Below are positions 27,128 through 57,449 of a stretch of 64,000 nt of DNA, piece after piece. This DNA is from Blattabacterium cuenoti. GTDB taxonomy: Bacteria > Bacteroidota > Bacteroidia > Flavobacteriales > Blattabacteriaceae. The notes beneath the pieces were generated by a model, which had not been told where the DNA came from, made no database searches, and saw only the letters and a list, made by a program, of their open reading frames with translations. A program made the position numbers and the translations under genes. The stretch covers positions 558,001 through 622,000 of the forward strand of contig NZ_CP059191.1 in NCBI RefSeq assembly GCF_014251575.1. Reading direction: 5' to 3'. Position 1 is the first letter of the stretch. Each line of letters opens with the position of its first letter.

Positions 27128-28405
27128 ATGCAAAAAAATATCATTGACGAACTCTCATGGAGAGGTTTAATAAAAAATAAAGTTTCTGGTATAGAAAATC
27201 AATTAAAAAAACCTACCACAATGTACATAGGATTTGACCCTACATCTGATTCTCTTCACTTAGGAAGTTTGCTTCCTCTTATCATTCTCATTCATTTTCA
27301 AAAAATGGGACATAAATCCTTAGTATTGATTGGTGGAGCAACAGGTTTTATAGGAGATCCTTCTGGTAGAAAAGATAACAGGATTTTTCTTAGTCAAGAA
27401 ATTTTACAAAAAAATACAGAATCTATAAAAAATCAAATCCTAAGACTTTTGAAGTTTCATTCAGAAAAAATAGAATTATTAAATAATTTAGATTGGATTC
27501 AAAATGTTTCTTTTTTGGAATTTATTCGTGATATTGGAAAATATTTTACTGTAAATTACATGATTTCTAAAGATTCTGTGAAAAAAAGAATTAATGATGA
27601 AAAAAACGGAATTTCCTTTACTGAATTTTCTTATTCTCTGATACAGGGATACGATTTTTTATATTTAAATCAAATGAAAAATTGTCTATTACAAATAGGT
27701 GGATCTGATCAATGGGGAAATATCACAACAGGAATAGAACTTATCAGAAAAAGAACAGGAAAAAAAGCATATGGATTTACTTTTCCTTTAATCACAAAAT
27801 CGAATGGAATAAAATTTGGAAAAAGTGAAAAAGGTGAAAATATATGGTTAGATAAAAATAAAACTTCTCCATATAAATTTTATCAGTTTTGGATCAACAT
27901 TTCTGATTTTGAAATTGAAAAATATATAAAAATATATACTTTTTTTTCTAAGGAAAAAATCGATCAATTAATTATTCAACACAGAAAAAATCCAAATAAA
28001 AGATTTTTGCAAAAAAAATTAGCCCATGAAATCACTAAATGGGTTCATGGAAATGAAATTTCCGAAAAAATCATAAAAATCACACATATATTATTCGATA
28101 AAAAAAATGAAATTTTACAATTCTTAAATGAAGAAACTCTCATTTCTATATACAATCACATTCCACATATGGTTCTCTCTTATGAAGAATTTGAAAAAGG
28201 AATTTTTTTATTAGATCTTTTAAAAAAAAGTGGCTTTTTTTATTCTAAAAGTGAAGCTAGTCGTGCTCTAAAAGCAAATTCAATTTATTTAAATAAAATT
28301 CTAATAAAAGAAAATTTTTTGCTACAAAAAAATAACATTATAGGAAAAAAGTACATTTTACTCCAATTTGGGAAAAAAGAATTTTTTATTATAAAAATTG
28401 AATAA
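27128..28405 (+). CDS. tyrS: Tyrosyl-tRNA synthetase
   Basis: A 425-residue class I synthetase. The HIGH-type motif is HLGS in GFDPTSDSLHLGSLLPL, tyrosine-binding residues lie in GGSDQWGNITTG, and the KMSKS-type loop is KFGKS. A C-terminal S4 domain (about 355-425) contacts the tRNA. It charges tRNA-Tyr. It converges with era, leaving only 2 bp between stops. Confidence 0.97.
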   Translation: MQKNIIDELSWRGLIKNKVSGIENQLKKPTTMYIGFDPTSDSLHLGSLLPLIILIHFQKMGHKSLVLIGGATGFIGDPSGRKDNRIFLSQEILQKNTESIKNQILRLLKFHSEKIELLNNLDWIQNVSFLEFIRDIGKYFTVNYMISKDSVKKRINDEKNGISFTEFSYSLIQGYDFLYLNQMKNCLLQIGGSDQWGNITTGIELIRKRTGKKAYGFTFPLITKSNGIKFGKSEKGENIWLDKNKTSPYKFYQFWINISDFEIEKYIKIYTFFSKEKIDQLIIQHRKNPNKRFLQKKLAHEITKWVHGNEISEKIIKITHILFDKKNEILQFLNEETLISIYNHIPHMVLSYEEFEKGIFLLDLLKKSGFFYSKSEASRALKANSIYLNKILIKENFLLQKNNIIGKKYILLQFGKKEFFIIKIE

Positions 28406-28407
28406 AT

Positions 28408-29288
28408 TCAGTACCCAAAAAATTTCAATTTTTTGTAGTCATATCGCCAATTTGGACAAACTTTCACATGAAGCTTTAATTTGATCTTTTTTCTCAAAAA
28501 AGACTCTATGCTTTTTATCGAAAAAAATTTCAATTTTTTAAGACGATCTCCTCTCTTTCCAATTAAAATTCCTTTTTGAGAACTACGTTCTACATATATA
28601 CAAGATAATATCTGTATGAAATTTTTTTCATTTTTAAAAATGACTGTATTTATTTCTACTGAGTAAGGGATTTCTTTTTTGTATAGAAAAAATATTTTTT
28701 CTCTAATTATTTCATTTACAAAAAAACGTTTAGATCTGTTACTTAAAAATTCCTTGGGATAATAAGGAGGGTGTTCAGATAATAAGGATATAATTTTATT
28801 CATCAAAAGATCTTGATTCATTTTTTTTAATGCAGATATTGGTAATATTTCTGAATTAGGAAATAATTTATGCCAATAATCAATTGCATGATACAATATA
28901 TTCTCTCTACATTTTATTCCTATTTTATCTATTTTATTAATTAATATAATAATGGGAACATTTTTTTTTTAAGTTCATTAAATATTGGAAAGTATTCTAG
29001 TTTTCCAATTTCTGTTATTAACAAAATAATATCTGCATCATCCAATGATTTTTCCACATATTGCATCATAATTTTTTGCATAGGGTAAACAGGATGAATG
29101 ATTCCTGGAGTATCAGAAAATATGATCTGAAAATTCGATTCATTAATAATTCCTAATATTCTATGACGAGTAGTTTGTGGTTTATATGTTATTATGGAAA
29201 GTTTTTCTCCTACTAAAGAATTCATCAAAGTAGACTTTCCTGTATTAGGAAATCCTATAATATTAACAAAACCAGATTTATGAATCAC
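28408..29288 (-). CDS. era: GTPase Era, split by a frameshift at an A10 run
   Basis: Two frames form a complete Era. The N-terminal piece (29288-28941) has G1 GFPNTGKS, the switch segment YKPQTTRHRI and G3 DTPG. The second frame supplies VPIIILINKIDKIG (G4 NKID), G5 SALKK and a C-terminal KH domain with GKRGDRLKKL. The break is ten A on the coding strand (28961-28970): as written the frame runs KKKMFPLLY then stop; with eleven A, or a -1 slip, it reads KKKNVPIIILINKID and continues without a stop to 28408. Era is normally needed for 16S rRNA maturation, so rescue by polymerase slippage, or a sequencing error, is more likely than loss. Confidence 0.85.
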
Positions 29289-29297
29289 TGTTATTAA

Positions 29298-31925
29298 TTA
29301 TTGAATGTTAACATTTTCTAATTTTTCTGATTGACGAAATACAATTCCTTGTTCTTTGAAAAAATCTATCAAGATTTTATTATTTTTCTGTATTTTTTCT
29401 CCAATAATTTCTTTAGAAAGATTATTTAAAATTTCATGTTGAATAACTCTTTTTAAAGGTCTAGCTCCAAAATGAGGATCGTATCCTTTTTCAGATAAAT
29501 ATTCTATAGCTTCATGAGTAGATTCTATACAAACATTCTTTTTATTTAATAATAAATCACTTAATTTTTTCATTTGCAATTTAACAATACCTCTAATTTC
29601 TTTTCTAGAAAGAGGTTTAAACAAAATAATTTCATCAATACGATTAATAAATTCAGGTCTTACAATATTTTTTAACAAATCTATTAAAGCTTTTTTTGTA
29701 GCTTCCATTCGATTAGAAGATATTTCTTGATCTAAATTTTCCTGAATAATATCCGCTCCTATATTGGAAGTCATAATAATAATAGTATTTGTAAAATTAA
29801 CTGTTCTTCCTTTATTATCTGTCAATCTTCCATCATCCAAAACCTGTAATAGAATATTAAAAACATCTGAATGTGCTTTTTCTATTTCGTCTAGTAAAAT
29901 TACGCTATAAGGACGTCTTCGTATAGATTCTGTTAATTGTCCACTTTCATCATAACCTATATATCCAGGAGGAGCTCCTATAAGTCTGCTGACAGAATGA
30001 CGTTCTTGATATTCACTCATATCTATACGAACCATATTAGTTTCATCATCAAACAGATATTCTGCCAATGTTTTAGCAAGTTCTGTTTTTCCTACTCCTG
30101 TGCTTCCCATAAAAAGAAAAGATCCTATAGGTTTTTTTTCATCTTGTAATCCAGCTCTAGAACGTCGTATTGCATCTGCTACAGATTGAATAGCATCATT
30201 TTGTCCAATCACTCTTCTGTGTAACTCTTTTTCCAAAAATAATAATTTCTCTCTTTCACTTTGCAACATTTTAGTAACTGGAATTCCAGTCCATTTGGAT
30301 ACTACTTGTGCGATGTCTTCTCTGGATACTTCTTCTTGTATCATTTTTTTTCCCTTATCTTCCTGTTTTTTTAATTTATCTTCAAATTCTTTTACTTTAT
30401 TTTCTTCTTCTTTTATTTTTCCATATCTTAATTCTGCCACTCTTCCATAATCTCCTGATCTTTCAGCTTGTTCAGCTTCAAATTTAAAATTTTCTATTTT
30501 ATCCTTAGCTTTTTGTATTCCTTCAACTAAATCTTTTTCACTTTGCCATTGAGCTTGTAATTGCATTTTTTTTTCATTTAATTTAGACAATTTCTTTTTT
30601 AAAGGAATCAACTGTTTTTCATCATTTTCTCTTTTCAAAGCTTCCATTTGTATTTCCATATGCATTATATTTCTGTGCAATACATCTAATTCTTCTGGTT
30701 TTGAATTAATTTCCATTCTTAACTTTGAAGCAGCTTCGTCTACAAGATCTATAGCTTTATCAGGTAAAAAACGTTCATTAATATAACGTTTTGACAATTC
30801 TACAGCTGCTATAATAGACTCATCTTTAATTCTTACTTTATGATGACTTTCATATTTTTCTTTAATCCCACGCAATATAGATACAGAGTCAGTAACAGAA
30901 GGTTCATCAACGTATACTTGTTGAAATCTTCTTTCTAAAGCTTTATCTACTCTAAAATATTTTTGATATTCATTTAAAGTTGTAGCTCCTATTGCCCTAA
31001 GTTCTCCTCTTGCTAATGCTGGTTTTAAAATATTTGCTGCATCCATAGCCCCTTCTCCTCCTCCTGCACCAACCAAGGTATGAATTTCATCAATAAATAA
31101 AATAATTTCTCCATCTGAAGATGTTACTTCTTTGACGACAGCTTTAAGACGTTCTTCAAATTCTCCCTTGTATTTTGCTCCTGCAATTAAAGAAGCCATA
31201 TCTAAAGAAAAAACTTGTTTATTTCTTAAATTATCCGGAATATCTCCACTAATAATACGATGAGCTAGTCCTTCAGCAATAGCTGTTTTTCCTACCCCTG
31301 GTTCTCCAATTAAAATTGGATTATTTTTTGTTCTTCTAGATAATATTTGCAATACTCTACGTATTTCTTCATCACGTCCAATAACTGGATCTAATTTCCC
31401 TTTGTAAGCCCATTCGTTAAGATTTTTTGCGTATTTTCCCAAAGAATTGTAGGTATTTTCAGCTGTAGTAGAAATCACATTTCCGCTTTTTTTTCTAATA
31501 TTTTCAATTATTTTTTTAATTTTTTCACCTGTAATCCCTTGATCTTTCAAGATTTGAGAAGCATGATCTGAACTCATAAAAATTCCGTAAAAAATATGTT
31601 CTACAGAAATAAATTCATCTTTTAATGTTTTAGCATAATCTTCCGCTATACTTAACATTTTTGTTACATGTGAACTAAAATGTTGACTAAAAGATCCACT
31701 TATTATTTTTGGATAAGAAGAAATAATACGGTCTAATCCTGATATTATTGATTGAGGGTTTACTTTTAATTTCTTTAGAAGAAAAGGTATTATATTTTCC
31801 TCAATCTTTAAAATGGATTTCAAAATATGTGCATTTTCAATAGACTGTTGATGATTATTTAGTGCAATATGTAGTGCTTCCTGTATTACTTCTTGAGATT
31901 TTATAGTAAACTTATTAGAATTCAT
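29298..31925 (-). CDS. clpB: ATP-dependent chaperone ClpB
   Basis: An 875-residue Hsp100 disaggregase. It has an N-domain (1-145), NBD1 with Walker [10 protein letters not shown], a long charged coiled-coil middle domain (about 405-530) that marks ClpB rather than ClpA/C, and NBD2 with [12 protein letters not shown]. The ClpP-binding tripeptide loop of ClpA/X is not evident. It resolubilises aggregated proteins with DnaK, useful in a symbiont with mildly unstable proteins. It lies 9 bp upstream of era on the same strand. Confidence 0.97.
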
Positions 31926-48282: not shown

Positions 48283-49728
48283 TTATATAAAATCAGATAG
48301 TTTTTTTAAAACTTTTTCTAATCCAGTTTCCTTTTCGATTATTCTAGATATATTTTTTATATGAATTCTTTTTTGTTGCATACTGTCTCTATATCTCATA
48401 GTCACTGTATCTGTTTCTATGGTTTTATAATCCACTGTAAAACATAGAGGTGTTCCTATCGCATCTTGTCTTCGATATAATTTACCAATAGATTCTTTTT
48501 GATCATAAATTAATTTATGATTCATTTTAAAATCATTAAATATTTTTTTTGCAGTTTCTGGCAATCCATCTTTTCTAACTAATGGAAGAATGGCAGCTTT
48601 GACAGGTGATAAATAATAAGGAAGTTTTAGGACTATACGTATATTTCTATTTTCTAATTCTTCTTTTTTAAGAGAAGAAGAAAATATGGCTAAAAAAAGA
48701 CGATCTAACCCTAGAGATGTTTCTATCACATAAGGAATATAATTTTTTTTTGATTCAAAGACTCTTAATTTTTTTTTTGAAAAAAATTCATGTTTTTTCA
48801 AATCAAAGTCTCTTCGAGAATGTATTCCTTCTATTTCTTGAAATCCAAAAGGAAAATGATATTCAATATCTGCACCTACACTAGCATAATGTGCTAAATG
48901 ATCATGATTACGTAATTTATAATTCTTTTGATCTCCAAAAATTAAATGCCATTTTAAACGGACATTTTTCCAATATTCATACCATCTTTTTTCTTCTTCA
49001 GGAAGAATAAAAAATTGCATTTCCATTTGCTCAAATTCTCTCATTCTAAACAGAAATTTTCTTGCAAATATTTCATTTCTAAATGATTTCCCTATTTGAG
49101 CTATTCCAAATGGAATTTTCATTCTACTAGATTTTTTAACATTATGAAAATTGCAAAATATTCCTTGAGCTGTTTCTGGACGAAGAAATAAATCTTTTTT
49201 ATTTTCATCTTTGATTTTAAACATCATATTAAAATGACGAATTTTTGTCCAATTTTTTGTTTTAGAAATAGAATCACAAATGTTTAATTCATCAAATAAA
49301 ATTTTGAGATCTGATAAATCCTTTTTTTTTAAAGATTGAGACAAACGAAATAATATATCTTCTTTTTTTTTAGGATTATTTGAAAAAGTTTTTTCTACAT
49401 GTTCTTTAATAAGAATATCAGGACGATATCTTTTTTTGGAATCCTTATTATCAATTAATAACTCATTAAACTCATCCACGTGCCCTGATGCATTCCAAAT
49501 ATCAGAACGCATTAATATAGAGGAATCTATTCCTACTATATTCTCATGAATAAGAGTCATTGTTTTCCACCAAAATTCCTTTATATTATTTTTTAATTCA
49601 ATTCCATACGGTCCATAATCATAAACAGCATTTAATCCACCATAAATTTCACTAGAAGGAAAAATAAAACCATAAATTTTTGCGTGAGAAATTAAAAAAT
49701 CAAAGAAATGATTATTCCATTCTTTCAT
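48283..49728 (-). CDS. glyS: Glycyl-tRNA synthetase (single-chain, alpha2 type)
   Basis: A 481-residue class II synthetase of the archaeal/eukaryotic-like homodimer type used by Bacteroidota. Motif 1 region GGLNAVYDYGPYGIELKNN, motif 2 FRNEIFARKFLFRMREFEQM, and motif 3 ETSLGLDRLFLA, with a C-terminal anticodon-binding domain ending KVLKKLSDFI. It is slightly shorter than free-living relatives. It overlaps trxB by 17 bp. Confidence 0.96.
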   Translation of the reverse strand: MKEWNNHFFDFLISHAKIYGFIFPSSEIYGGLNAVYDYGPYGIELKNNIKEFWWKTMTLIHENIVGIDSSILMRSDIWNASGHVDEFNELLIDNKDSKKRYRPDILIKEHVEKTFSNNPKKKEDILFRLSQSLKKKDLSDLKILFDELNICDSISKTKNWTKIRHFNMMFKIKDENKKDLFLRPETAQGIFCNFHNVKKSSRMKIPFGIAQIGKSFRNEIFARKFLFRMREFEQMEMQFFILPEEEKRWYEYWKNVRLKWHLIFGDQKNYKLRNHDHLAHYASVGADIEYHFPFGFQEIEGIHSRRDFDLKKHEFFSKKKLRVFESKKNYIPYVIETSLGLDRLFLAIFSSSLKKEELENRNIRIVLKLPYYLSPVKAAILPLVRKDGLPETAKKIFNDFKMNHKLIYDQKESIGKLYRRQDAIGTPLCFTVDYKTIETDTVTMRYRDSMQQKRIHIKNISRIIEKETGLEKVLKKLSDFI

Positions 49729-55614: not shown

Positions 55615-55658
55615 AATCTTTTCTAATTTATGCAAAATTTTTACTTTATAATTCTTTA

Positions 55659-55820
55659 TTAAAAATTAATGTGATGCATTGATCTTAAAAAGTTATCCAA
55701 ATAAGGAATCAATAATCTATTTTTTGTTTCTAAAAAATAAATTTTATTGGTGTTATTAACGGTATCTACTTTTTTAACAATTTCTGTGTTTTTCACTATT
55801 AAAATAACTGTAGAAGTCAT
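55659..55820 (-). CDS. Small ORF of unknown significance (53 aa)
   Basis: An ATG-started frame reading MTSTVILIVKNTEIVKKVDT and ending SMHHINF before TAA. No motif is recognised. It is the longest open frame in the 515-bp gap and may be a fragment of a lost gene or chance. Confidence 0.2.
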   Translation of the reverse strand: MTSTVILIVKNTEIVKKVDTVNNTNKIYFLETKNRLLIPYLDNFLRSMHHINF

Positions 55821-55913
55821 TTTTAATATGAAAAAAAATAGTACACATTAATCCATTTTTTTAAAAAATCTATATTATTTTTATCAGTTTTTCTTTTATT
55901 CGTATTTGATCAT

Positions 55914-55935
55914 AATTTATTTCATGAAATAAATT
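55914..55935. repeat. Perfect 22-bp palindrome
   Basis: AATTTATTTCA followed immediately by its reverse complement TGAAATAAATT. It could be a hairpin terminator remnant behind lpxC-fabZ or an operator; no T tract follows on either strand. Confidence 0.4.
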
Positions 55936-56129
55936 CCTTTATATAATAAATTCCGATAAAAAGTTAAATTACGCTTTAACCTTTTTAAATTTATACTTTA
56001 TGGATTTTTTAATTTAGTTATTACAAATAACATATCCTTATTCTTTAAAAAAGAAATTATTTTATTCTTCTTTATCCCATTGTATATTGGAATCATTTTT
56101 TTAAATCAAAGTTTTTGTCAAAATTTGTC

Positions 56130-57449
56130 TTAATTTTTAACTACTTTTGCCATAACTTCTGCTTCTATCACAAGTTTATTATTTACGTAACCTTTTCCTT
56201 TCATATGAACTATTCCTCTTTTCATAGGTTCCAATAAATCAACTTTAAAAATGATTATGTCTCCAGGTACTATTTTATGTTTAAATTTAACTTTATCTAT
56301 TTTTAAAAAATAAGTAGAATACAATTCAGGATTGTTTAATTTATTTAACACAAGTATTCCTCCTACTTGTGCTATAGCTTCTATCTGCAATACTCCAGGC
56401 ATGATCGGTTCTTTTGGAAAATGCCCTATAAAAAACGATTCATTCATAGTTACATTTTTAACTCCTGTGACACTAGATTCCGTTAAATCTATGATTTTAT
56501 CCACCATAAGAAATGGAGGTTTATGAGGCAAAATTTTCATGATCTTTTTTATATCTAAGATGGGATCCCTTGCTAAATTAAATTTAGGAATATCATTATT
56601 TTTAAATATTTTAACTTTTTTAATTAACTCCTTTAAGAATTGCATAATAATATAATTATCAGGCTTATAAAAAATCAATTTTCCTTTTAATTTAGCACCT
56701 GTTAAAGTTAAAAAACCTATAATATCTAAAAGAAGATGTTTAGCTATTTCATTAGATTCTTGATAGGTAAATGAAGAAAAATAAGATATAGGTTTTTCTT
56801 TCATTTTAAGTTGATTGATTGAAAATAAATTATTACCTTTTATAGATTTTTTAGTCATTTTTTCACGAAGAATACAAAAAGTTTTTGAATTAGCTATTTT
56901 TTGTTTAAACTGATCTAAATGTTTTAAAACTGCATTTTGTCCAAATTTTGAATCAAAATCTATTATAGTCATGATTTCAAATTTTTTAGCGGGGAAAGCC
57001 ATGATTTCTGCTCCTGTTTTTTTATTTTCATAAGAAATAATTTCTTTTATCGAATAATATTTTCTGTTTGCATCTTGTTCTATTACTCCAACTTTTTCAA
57101 TTGCTTCTACAAATAATTTTGAAGAACCATCCATAATAGGAATTTCTATGTTATCTAATTCTATAATAACATTATCTAAATCCATTCCTGTAAGAGCCGC
57201 AAGAACATGTTCAATCGTATAAATTTTAAATCCATTTTTTTCCAAAATAAGACCTTGATCTATTCTTTCTTTTAACAAGAAAGAAAAATGAGCCTTTATG
57301 CAAGGTTTTTCTTTGATATCTGTTCTAATAAAAATAAATCCTGTATGTTCTGGAGCTGGTTTAAAAGTAATAGTCACTTTTTTTTCAGTATATAAACCGA
57401 ATCCTTGCAAAGAAATTTTTTCTGCAATAGTTTTTTGCTTTTCAAGCAT
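56130..57449 (-). CDS. LpxC-FabZ fusion with a degraded LpxC active site
   Basis: A 439-residue fusion typical of Bacteroidota. Residues 1-290 are LpxC-like (UDP-3-O-acyl-GlcNAc deacetylase) and 296-439 are FabZ (3-hydroxyacyl-ACP dehydratase). The zinc ligands remain: His81 in TIEHVLAAL, and His238 and Asp242 in HLLLDIIG. However, the general-acid His (A. aeolicus His265, in the usual GHxxN) is Asn265 in YKPDNYIIM; its partner Asp246 is Phe; and the GLHTG motif reads GLYTE (Tyr20). FabZ is intact, with ILPHKPPFLMVD and GHFPKEPIMPGVLQIEA (His343, Glu357). I infer that FabZ function is selected and lipid A deacetylation is lost or weak. Confidence 0.92.
   Translation of the reverse strand: MLEKQKTIAEKISLQGFGLYTEKKVTITFKPAPEHTGFIFIRTDIKEKPCIKAHFSFLLKERIDQGLILEKNGFKIYTIEHVLAALTGMDLDNVIIELDNIEIPIMDGSSKLFVEAIEKVGVIEQDANRKYYSIKEIISYENKKTGAEIMAFPAKKFEIMTIIDFDSKFGQNAVLKHLDQFKQKIANSKTFCILREKMTKKSIKGNNLFSINQLKMKEKPISYFSSFTYQESNEIAKHLLLDIIGFLTLTGAKLKGKLIFYKPDNYIIMQFLKELIKKVKIFKNNDIPKFNLARDPILDIKKIMKILPHKPPFLMVDKIIDLTESSVTGVKNVTMNESFFIGHFPKEPIMPGVLQIEAIAQVGGILVLNKLNNPELYSTYFLKIDKVKFKHKIVPGDIIIFKVDLLEPMKRGIVHMKGKGYVNNKLVIEAEVMAKVVKN

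Follow-up and report, generated by a model that had tools for sequence, protein, structure and literature searches.

A recurrent one-base deletion in the poly(A) tract of Blattabacterium era, a frameshifted gene either kept in use by polymerase slippage or being lost

Genes that carry a single insertion or deletion in a long A/T run, and are otherwise clean, have been described in Buchnera and Blochmannia (Tamas 2008 and Wernegreen 2010, as presented in PMC3017870). Blochmannia vafer has eight such homopolymer-frameshifted genes, pth among them, and some of the shifts in these symbionts are common to species; for four of the genes, the passages of that paper drawn on here report no acceleration of rate in the lineage (PMC3017870). 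Transcripts in which the frame was restored have been observed in these systems, with a figure of about 30% full-length transcripts quoted from earlier work by the same paper (PMC3017870). In Buchnera, insertions in transcripts are concentrated in A/T runs, yet a transcriptome-wide study saw none that put a frame right again (PMC5574713). In the flavobacterial symbiont Walczuchella, genes with homopolymer frameshifts carry a pseudogene annotation although they may still function; that account concerns a single genome, and the word era is absent from its main text (PMC3971599). In most bacteria, Era is either essential or important, and it is regarded as hard to lose; Dependentiae, Chlamydia, and most CPR are named as groups that have lost it (PMC10582724). 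Judging by titles and the openings of abstracts in the open-access literature, we found no report of tract shifts in Blattabacterium. The era gene described here resembles the Buchnera and Blochmannia genes in having one indel in a long A/T run with the rest of the gene clean. It differs from them in belonging to a symbiont from the Bacteroidota, in that the shift is recurrent instead of shared, and in being known here from DNA alone, where restored transcripts were observed in the other two genera. We conclude that either polymerase slippage still allows the shifted gene to be read or the gene is being lost.

The gene lies in a 64-kb window, meaning the whole stretch of DNA analysed, of a genome designated G000; its 48 relatives of the same genus are G001 to G048. 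The features of the locus are collected in Table 1. On the coding strand, the bases GAA CTT are followed by the A10 tract and then by TGTTCCC, and the -1 shift at the tract leaves the gene without one continuous reading frame. The 5' frame opens with a GTG start, encodes 115 amino acids, and ends at a stop six codons beyond the tract's final complete AAA codon. All three GTPase motifs, G1, G3, and G4, can be read in the sequence, in agreement with the MMR_HSR1 match, G4 appearing only after the -1 shift. A preliminary description of this DNA had claimed that era is intact save for one missing A in the A10 run and that, once the -1 shift is allowed for, the G motifs and the KH domain share a single frame from 29288 to 28408. 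Both claims were borne out. The two frames match consecutive parts of the Era family model, with KH_2 in the second, and a frame-aware alignment with the era of G030, at 93% identity, requires a single -1 event and is free of stop codons and gaps. No second era was found by an Era-profile search of the whole G000 genome (633,713 bases, one contig). That search returned nine matches, namely the two pieces of era and seven others that, judged by partial coverage and frame lengths, are taken to be other GTPases.

Table 1. Features of the era locus in the G000 window
Feature	Position	Strand	Basis
era A10 tract, site of the -1 shift	28961..28970	-	sequence; T10 on the + strand
5' frame of era, carrying the GTPase domain and G1-G3, stop just after the tract	28941..29288	-	NCBIfam Era 1-108 of 291 and Pfam MMR_HSR1
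3' frame of era, carrying NKID (G4) and the KH domain, uninterrupted between the tract and the usual stop	28408..28965	-	NCBIfam Era 110-291 of 291
G1 motif GFPNTGKS of era	29232..29255	-	sequence reading
G3 motif DTPG of era	29103..29114	-	sequence reading
G4 motif NKID of era, in the shifted frame	28927..28938	-	sequence reading
KH_2 RNA-binding domain of Era	28444..28674	-	Pfam PF07650, 9.1e-14; coordinates converted by hand
Upstream neighbour of era, synteny anchor (presumably clpB)	29298..31925	-	ORF and interval comparison
Downstream convergent neighbour of era, synteny anchor (presumably tyrS)	27128..28405	+	ORF and interval comparison

Runs of at least 10 are the usual site of sequencing and assembly errors, and on such a reading the DNA would be A11 and era plainly intact. 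The G000 window holds 20 A/T runs of at least 10. Besides that of era, 14 of these sit at least 30 bases within open ORFs of at least 100 amino acids, which is how a background run was defined as being in frame, and over the windows of the three shifted genomes G000, G002, and G044 the number of other such runs within open ORFs is 66. Because so many comparable runs lie within open ORFs, simple miscalling is unlikely, and in a survey of the conserved genes of these three genomes against the ORFs of G030, G017, and G005, era alone was broken at a run of at least 10, so that a mistake would need to strike era alone in several genomes. The contrast persists in a larger sample. At runs of at least 10, the era tract is broken in 5 and in frame in 8 copies, counted over all 49 genomes, versus 5 broken and 200 within open ORFs for other genes, counted in 11 windows picked as shifted genomes and their relatives (Fisher test, 7e-5, or 3e-4 if the non-era breaks are set to eight). 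A general tendency to miscall homopolymers was judged unlikely on the same background of 200 runs in open ORFs and five at breaks. The five breaks outside era, assigned to runs by eye, are in dnaN of G030, in aroQ, engB, and an AddB-like gene of G012, and in pth of G022. What favors error is found in individual records. Three genes of G012 are broken at or near runs of at least 10, and G046, also era-shifted, has several more conserved genes frameshifted in its window, mostly at shorter runs, which we take to be pckA-like, ribF-like, addB-like, sanA-like, and aroQ-like. Sequence errors in the G046 record are possible, and that genome is less trustworthy given its other breaks. As an account of the G000 gene, we consider sequencing or assembly error unlikely. 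Two further apparent frameshifts, near positions 1400 and 7200 of the window, were dismissed on reading the sequence, since the reference ORFs had been started too far upstream, and one near 49700, present in five relatives but absent from G000, was set aside as an over-long start by analogy only.

All 49 genomes of the genus were searched for era, and the interval from clpB to tyrS was fetched from all 48 relatives. The gene is full-length in 36 genomes, shifted at the same poly(A) tract in five (G000, G002, G022, G044, and G046), and eroded or gone in the other eight (G013, G015, G025, G029, G034, G035, G038, and G043). The preliminary description had proposed comparing the run length among related symbionts, and the outcome agrees with its view that one A is missing: eight in-frame copies (G016, G017, G020, G030, G031, G032, G033, and G048) have A11 at the tract, and the five shifted copies are one A short of this, the run of G044 reading as eleven A only since the preceding codon ends in A. 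In a tree built from TyrS and ClpB, several inner branches of which are weak and three rows of which have one third of the columns, G000 groups with its two nearest relatives, G005 (era in frame, A8) and G030 (era in frame, A11), and each of the shifted genomes adjoins in-frame genomes. Parsimony assigns five changes to the five shifts among the 41 intact or tract-shifted copies, and eight changes to the eight losses. The era shift is thus never common to sister genomes and was not inherited across speciation. The synteny anchor clpB itself looks eroded or missing in G001, G041, and G015, where the search yields at best a fragment or a weak match and long ORFs are absent.

Lesions of era are often, though not always, at the tract, because the gene of G013 is broken elsewhere with the tract still in frame and that of G034 has many lesions, one of them at the tract. 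The era of G022 has a second frame change besides the tract shift. The preliminary description had spoken of a normally essential GTPase, a characterization that fails for this genus. With era eroded or missing in 8 of 49 genomes, the gene is dispensable in close relatives, and cell survival therefore does not require rescue. The same eight genomes weigh against rescue in G000, since a shifted copy could be the first step of loss. Outside the genus, and within the same order, full-length era was above the cut-off in 48 of 55 sampled genomes; the other seven include several incomplete assemblies and one 0.3-Mb genome of the same family.

KsgA and YbeY are factors that act on the 16S rRNA at the end where Era acts. 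Matches to both were above the cut-off in all 49 genomes, and we therefore rejected the idea that era loss is tied to the loss of these partner factors; the YbeY matches of G020, G023, and G046 each have one stop within the matched stretch. The tail of the 16S rRNA, readable in 19 of 20 cases, is GAACATCTCT in 18 and GAATATCTCT in one (G013), instead of GATCACCTCC. The anti-SD is altered in all 19, and so is the sequence that Era contacts. An altered binding site was considered as the reason why era is dispensable and was rejected: the same tails occur in era-intact and era-broken genomes alike and therefore cannot explain which lineages lose the gene. That Blattabacterium lacks the consensus anti-SD has already been published (PMC6107228). 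Elsewhere in the window, at 55640-56130 on the - strand, there is an apparent remnant of EF-P, with only fragments in two frames, whereas the orthologue in G017 encodes the complete protein. From the sequence, a second translation factor seems to have been lost in the G000 lineage.

Codon models of era were fitted to 21 of the 49 genomes, comprising 18 of one clade and three outgroups, with intact era branches in the same run serving as the control for dN/dS (w); seven of these were tested on both parts of the gene, with w of 0.10-0.22. The five shifted terminal branches together gave 0.159 versus a background of 0.113, a difference that is not significant (2dlnL 2.9), and w=1 was rejected for the five jointly (2dlnL 77). 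The likelihood profile placed w of the shifted branches at about 0.11-0.23, from which simple arithmetic suggests that about 5% of their length, or some 13% at the most, has been unconstrained. Over the 3' half of the gene, the shifted branches reached 0.205 versus 0.127 (2dlnL 3.1), the individual values being 0.68 for G044, 0.43 for G000, 0.39 for G022, 0.19 for G046, and 0.085 for G002; intact controls also run high in this half, with 0.75 for G033 and 0.30 for G017. For G000 alone, the whole-gene value is 0.27 and w=1 is rejected (2dlnL 5.0), and the 3'-half value is indistinguishable from 1 in what is a weak test. The G000 gene shows neither multiple inactivating lesions nor, over its whole length, a w near 1; it has no stop and no second indel and belongs to a set of five branches for which w=1 is rejected. 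The shifted copies look constrained; their shifts may nonetheless be recent, as dN/dS gives no date.

The main rival to slippage rescue turns on this last point. It holds that Era is dispensable in the lineage and that the A10 allele is null, a very young pseudogene that receives no rescue and has been caught before decay. The intact copies of the near relatives G005 and G030 mean that the shift can be that recent, and the repeated losses of era elsewhere in the genus, the retention of KsgA and YbeY at the same end of 16S rRNA, and the raised 3'-half values, that of G044 above all, fit such a history. The stop codons fit it less well. Among the 13 non-intact era copies, the five that are free of stops, all broken at one tract, exceed the 1.27 expected under a crude model of neutral decay (P = 0.004; P = 0.028 for four copies if G022 is excluded because of its second frame change). 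The model lets the loss fall anywhere along each of the 13 branches with equal probability and counts stop codons only, and it is rough in that the branch lengths of the 8 decayed copies were scaled from the protein tree. Neutral evolution over the whole of the long G002 branch should have produced about 12 stops, and its era has none, with w at 0.096. These numbers are modest evidence that tract-shifted copies of era outlast null alleles. We regard the young pseudogene as a possible but less than probable account of the G000 gene.

The A-rich slippery heptamer of E. coli dnaX gives a -1 shift in translation. The same kind of heptamer, A_AAA_AAA, is found in the zero frame of G000 era, within CTT AAA AAA AAA ATG, and slipping back by one base at that point reproduces the KKKNVP stretch found in the in-frame G030 protein, so that programmed ribosomal frameshifting could in principle yield full-length Era from unedited mRNA. 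The era tract differs from dnaX in that no stimulatory elements were seen: RNA structure 3' of the tract is unremarkable (fold z-scores of -1.39, -0.11, and 0.44), inspection by eye of the sequence upstream revealed no AGGAG-like stimulator, and CCUCC is absent from the 16S tails that were read. The out-of-frame condition is also the minority state, with five shifted copies against 36 in frame. A programmed frameshift of this type is, in our estimation, very unlikely.

Another gene supplies a parallel to era. The pth gene was matched in all 49 genomes, above the cut-off in 46, and is frameshifted in eight of them (G011, G014, G022, G026, G027, G028, G037, and G048). Each of the eight has its two frames overlapping at a run of at least 10, that of G048 being an A10 run near the 3' end, and no stops were present in the codon pieces examined. 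Three of the genomes, G026, G027, and G037, form one clade in which pth is out of frame throughout, at the same stretch of an A run and a T run, two by -1 and one by -2. Codon models of pth covered 30 of the 49 genomes (31 sequences; G046 was dropped as the motif was not found), with G048 treated as background and represented by a shortened 3' piece. The four branches of the three-member clade gave w of 0.121 versus 0.081, about 59 stops being expected had they been neutral throughout, and the branches of G011, G014, G022, and G028 gave 0.098 versus 0.083. A pth frameshift inherited across speciation is suggested, in this one clade only. Clustering of the shifts on the tree is mild, with 85 of 2000 shuffles needing equally few changes when the seven shifted genomes other than G048 are considered, and three separate recent shifts within the clade could therefore also have occurred. 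The pth gene of Blochmannia vafer is likewise frameshifted at a homopolymer (PMC3017870); that symbiont is of another phylum, Blattabacterium has a three-member clade shifted throughout, and the likeness noted here is that of the gene.

Shifts at or near long runs are seen in other genes of the genus as well. In G030, G016, and G032, the dnaN gene is interrupted at or close to runs of 10-13. It was dropped as a never-lost control when no match was obtained in 8 of the 49 genomes, for which divergence instead of loss is possible. The engB gene is split in at least G012 and G037 and, among the matches listed, engB/YsxC is without a match of its own in nine of the 49 genomes (G002, G010, G011, G016, G017, G023, G024, G028, and G039); a second ribosome-assembly GTPase may be undergoing loss in parallel. 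Tract shifts therefore hit both an ever-present gene, pth, and genes that are apparently departing, era and engB and perhaps dnaN.

The likeliest single reading of the G000 locus, to which we assign a probability of roughly 0.55, is a genuine and recurrent poly(A) deletion in a gene of relaxed need that is probably still partly expressed through transcriptional slippage. By comparison with the relatives, one A would have been lost from a tract whose ancestral length was probably A11. The deletion would be a product of replication slippage at the longest run of era, the -1 state having arisen about five times by parsimony, and it would be tolerated because this genus has less need of Era, as the eight other losses suggest. 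Slippage of RNA polymerase on the A10 template is most likely and would generate a minority of A11 transcripts. Some full-length Era would then still be produced, and the rest of the gene would stay clean for a while. Ribosomal -1 slippage on the in-frame A_AAA_AAA could add to this, with the same protein as the result. Counting against this reading are that the era shift is never common to sister genomes, that G022 has its second frame change, and that frame-restoring errors were not seen in the Buchnera transcriptome (PMC5574713). The preliminary description had proposed that era is likely still expressed by slippage. The plausibility of that proposal has been strengthened by the constraint on the shifted copies and by the parallel of pth, and rescue by slippage in G000 is plausible; actual expression from the shifted gene stays a prediction from the DNA.

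The pth pattern suggests, by analogy, that slippage rescue of the type described for Buchnera and Blochmannia may also operate in a symbiont from the Bacteroidota. Polymerase slippage at long A/T runs might even be a standing decoding step across Blattabacterium, with era, pth, and dnaN toggling frame at little cost, an extension that we put forward tentatively. We are similarly hesitant about the part of it in which pth would have stayed out of frame through the radiation of three species. If the extension is true, such annotated pseudogenes of the genus would be working genes, and tract length would be a crude, reversible setting of expression. With intact, tract-shifted, eroded, and deleted states of era side by side in 49 genomes of one genus, whether a shifted gene is being rescued or has taken the first step of its loss is directly testable in living cockroaches.
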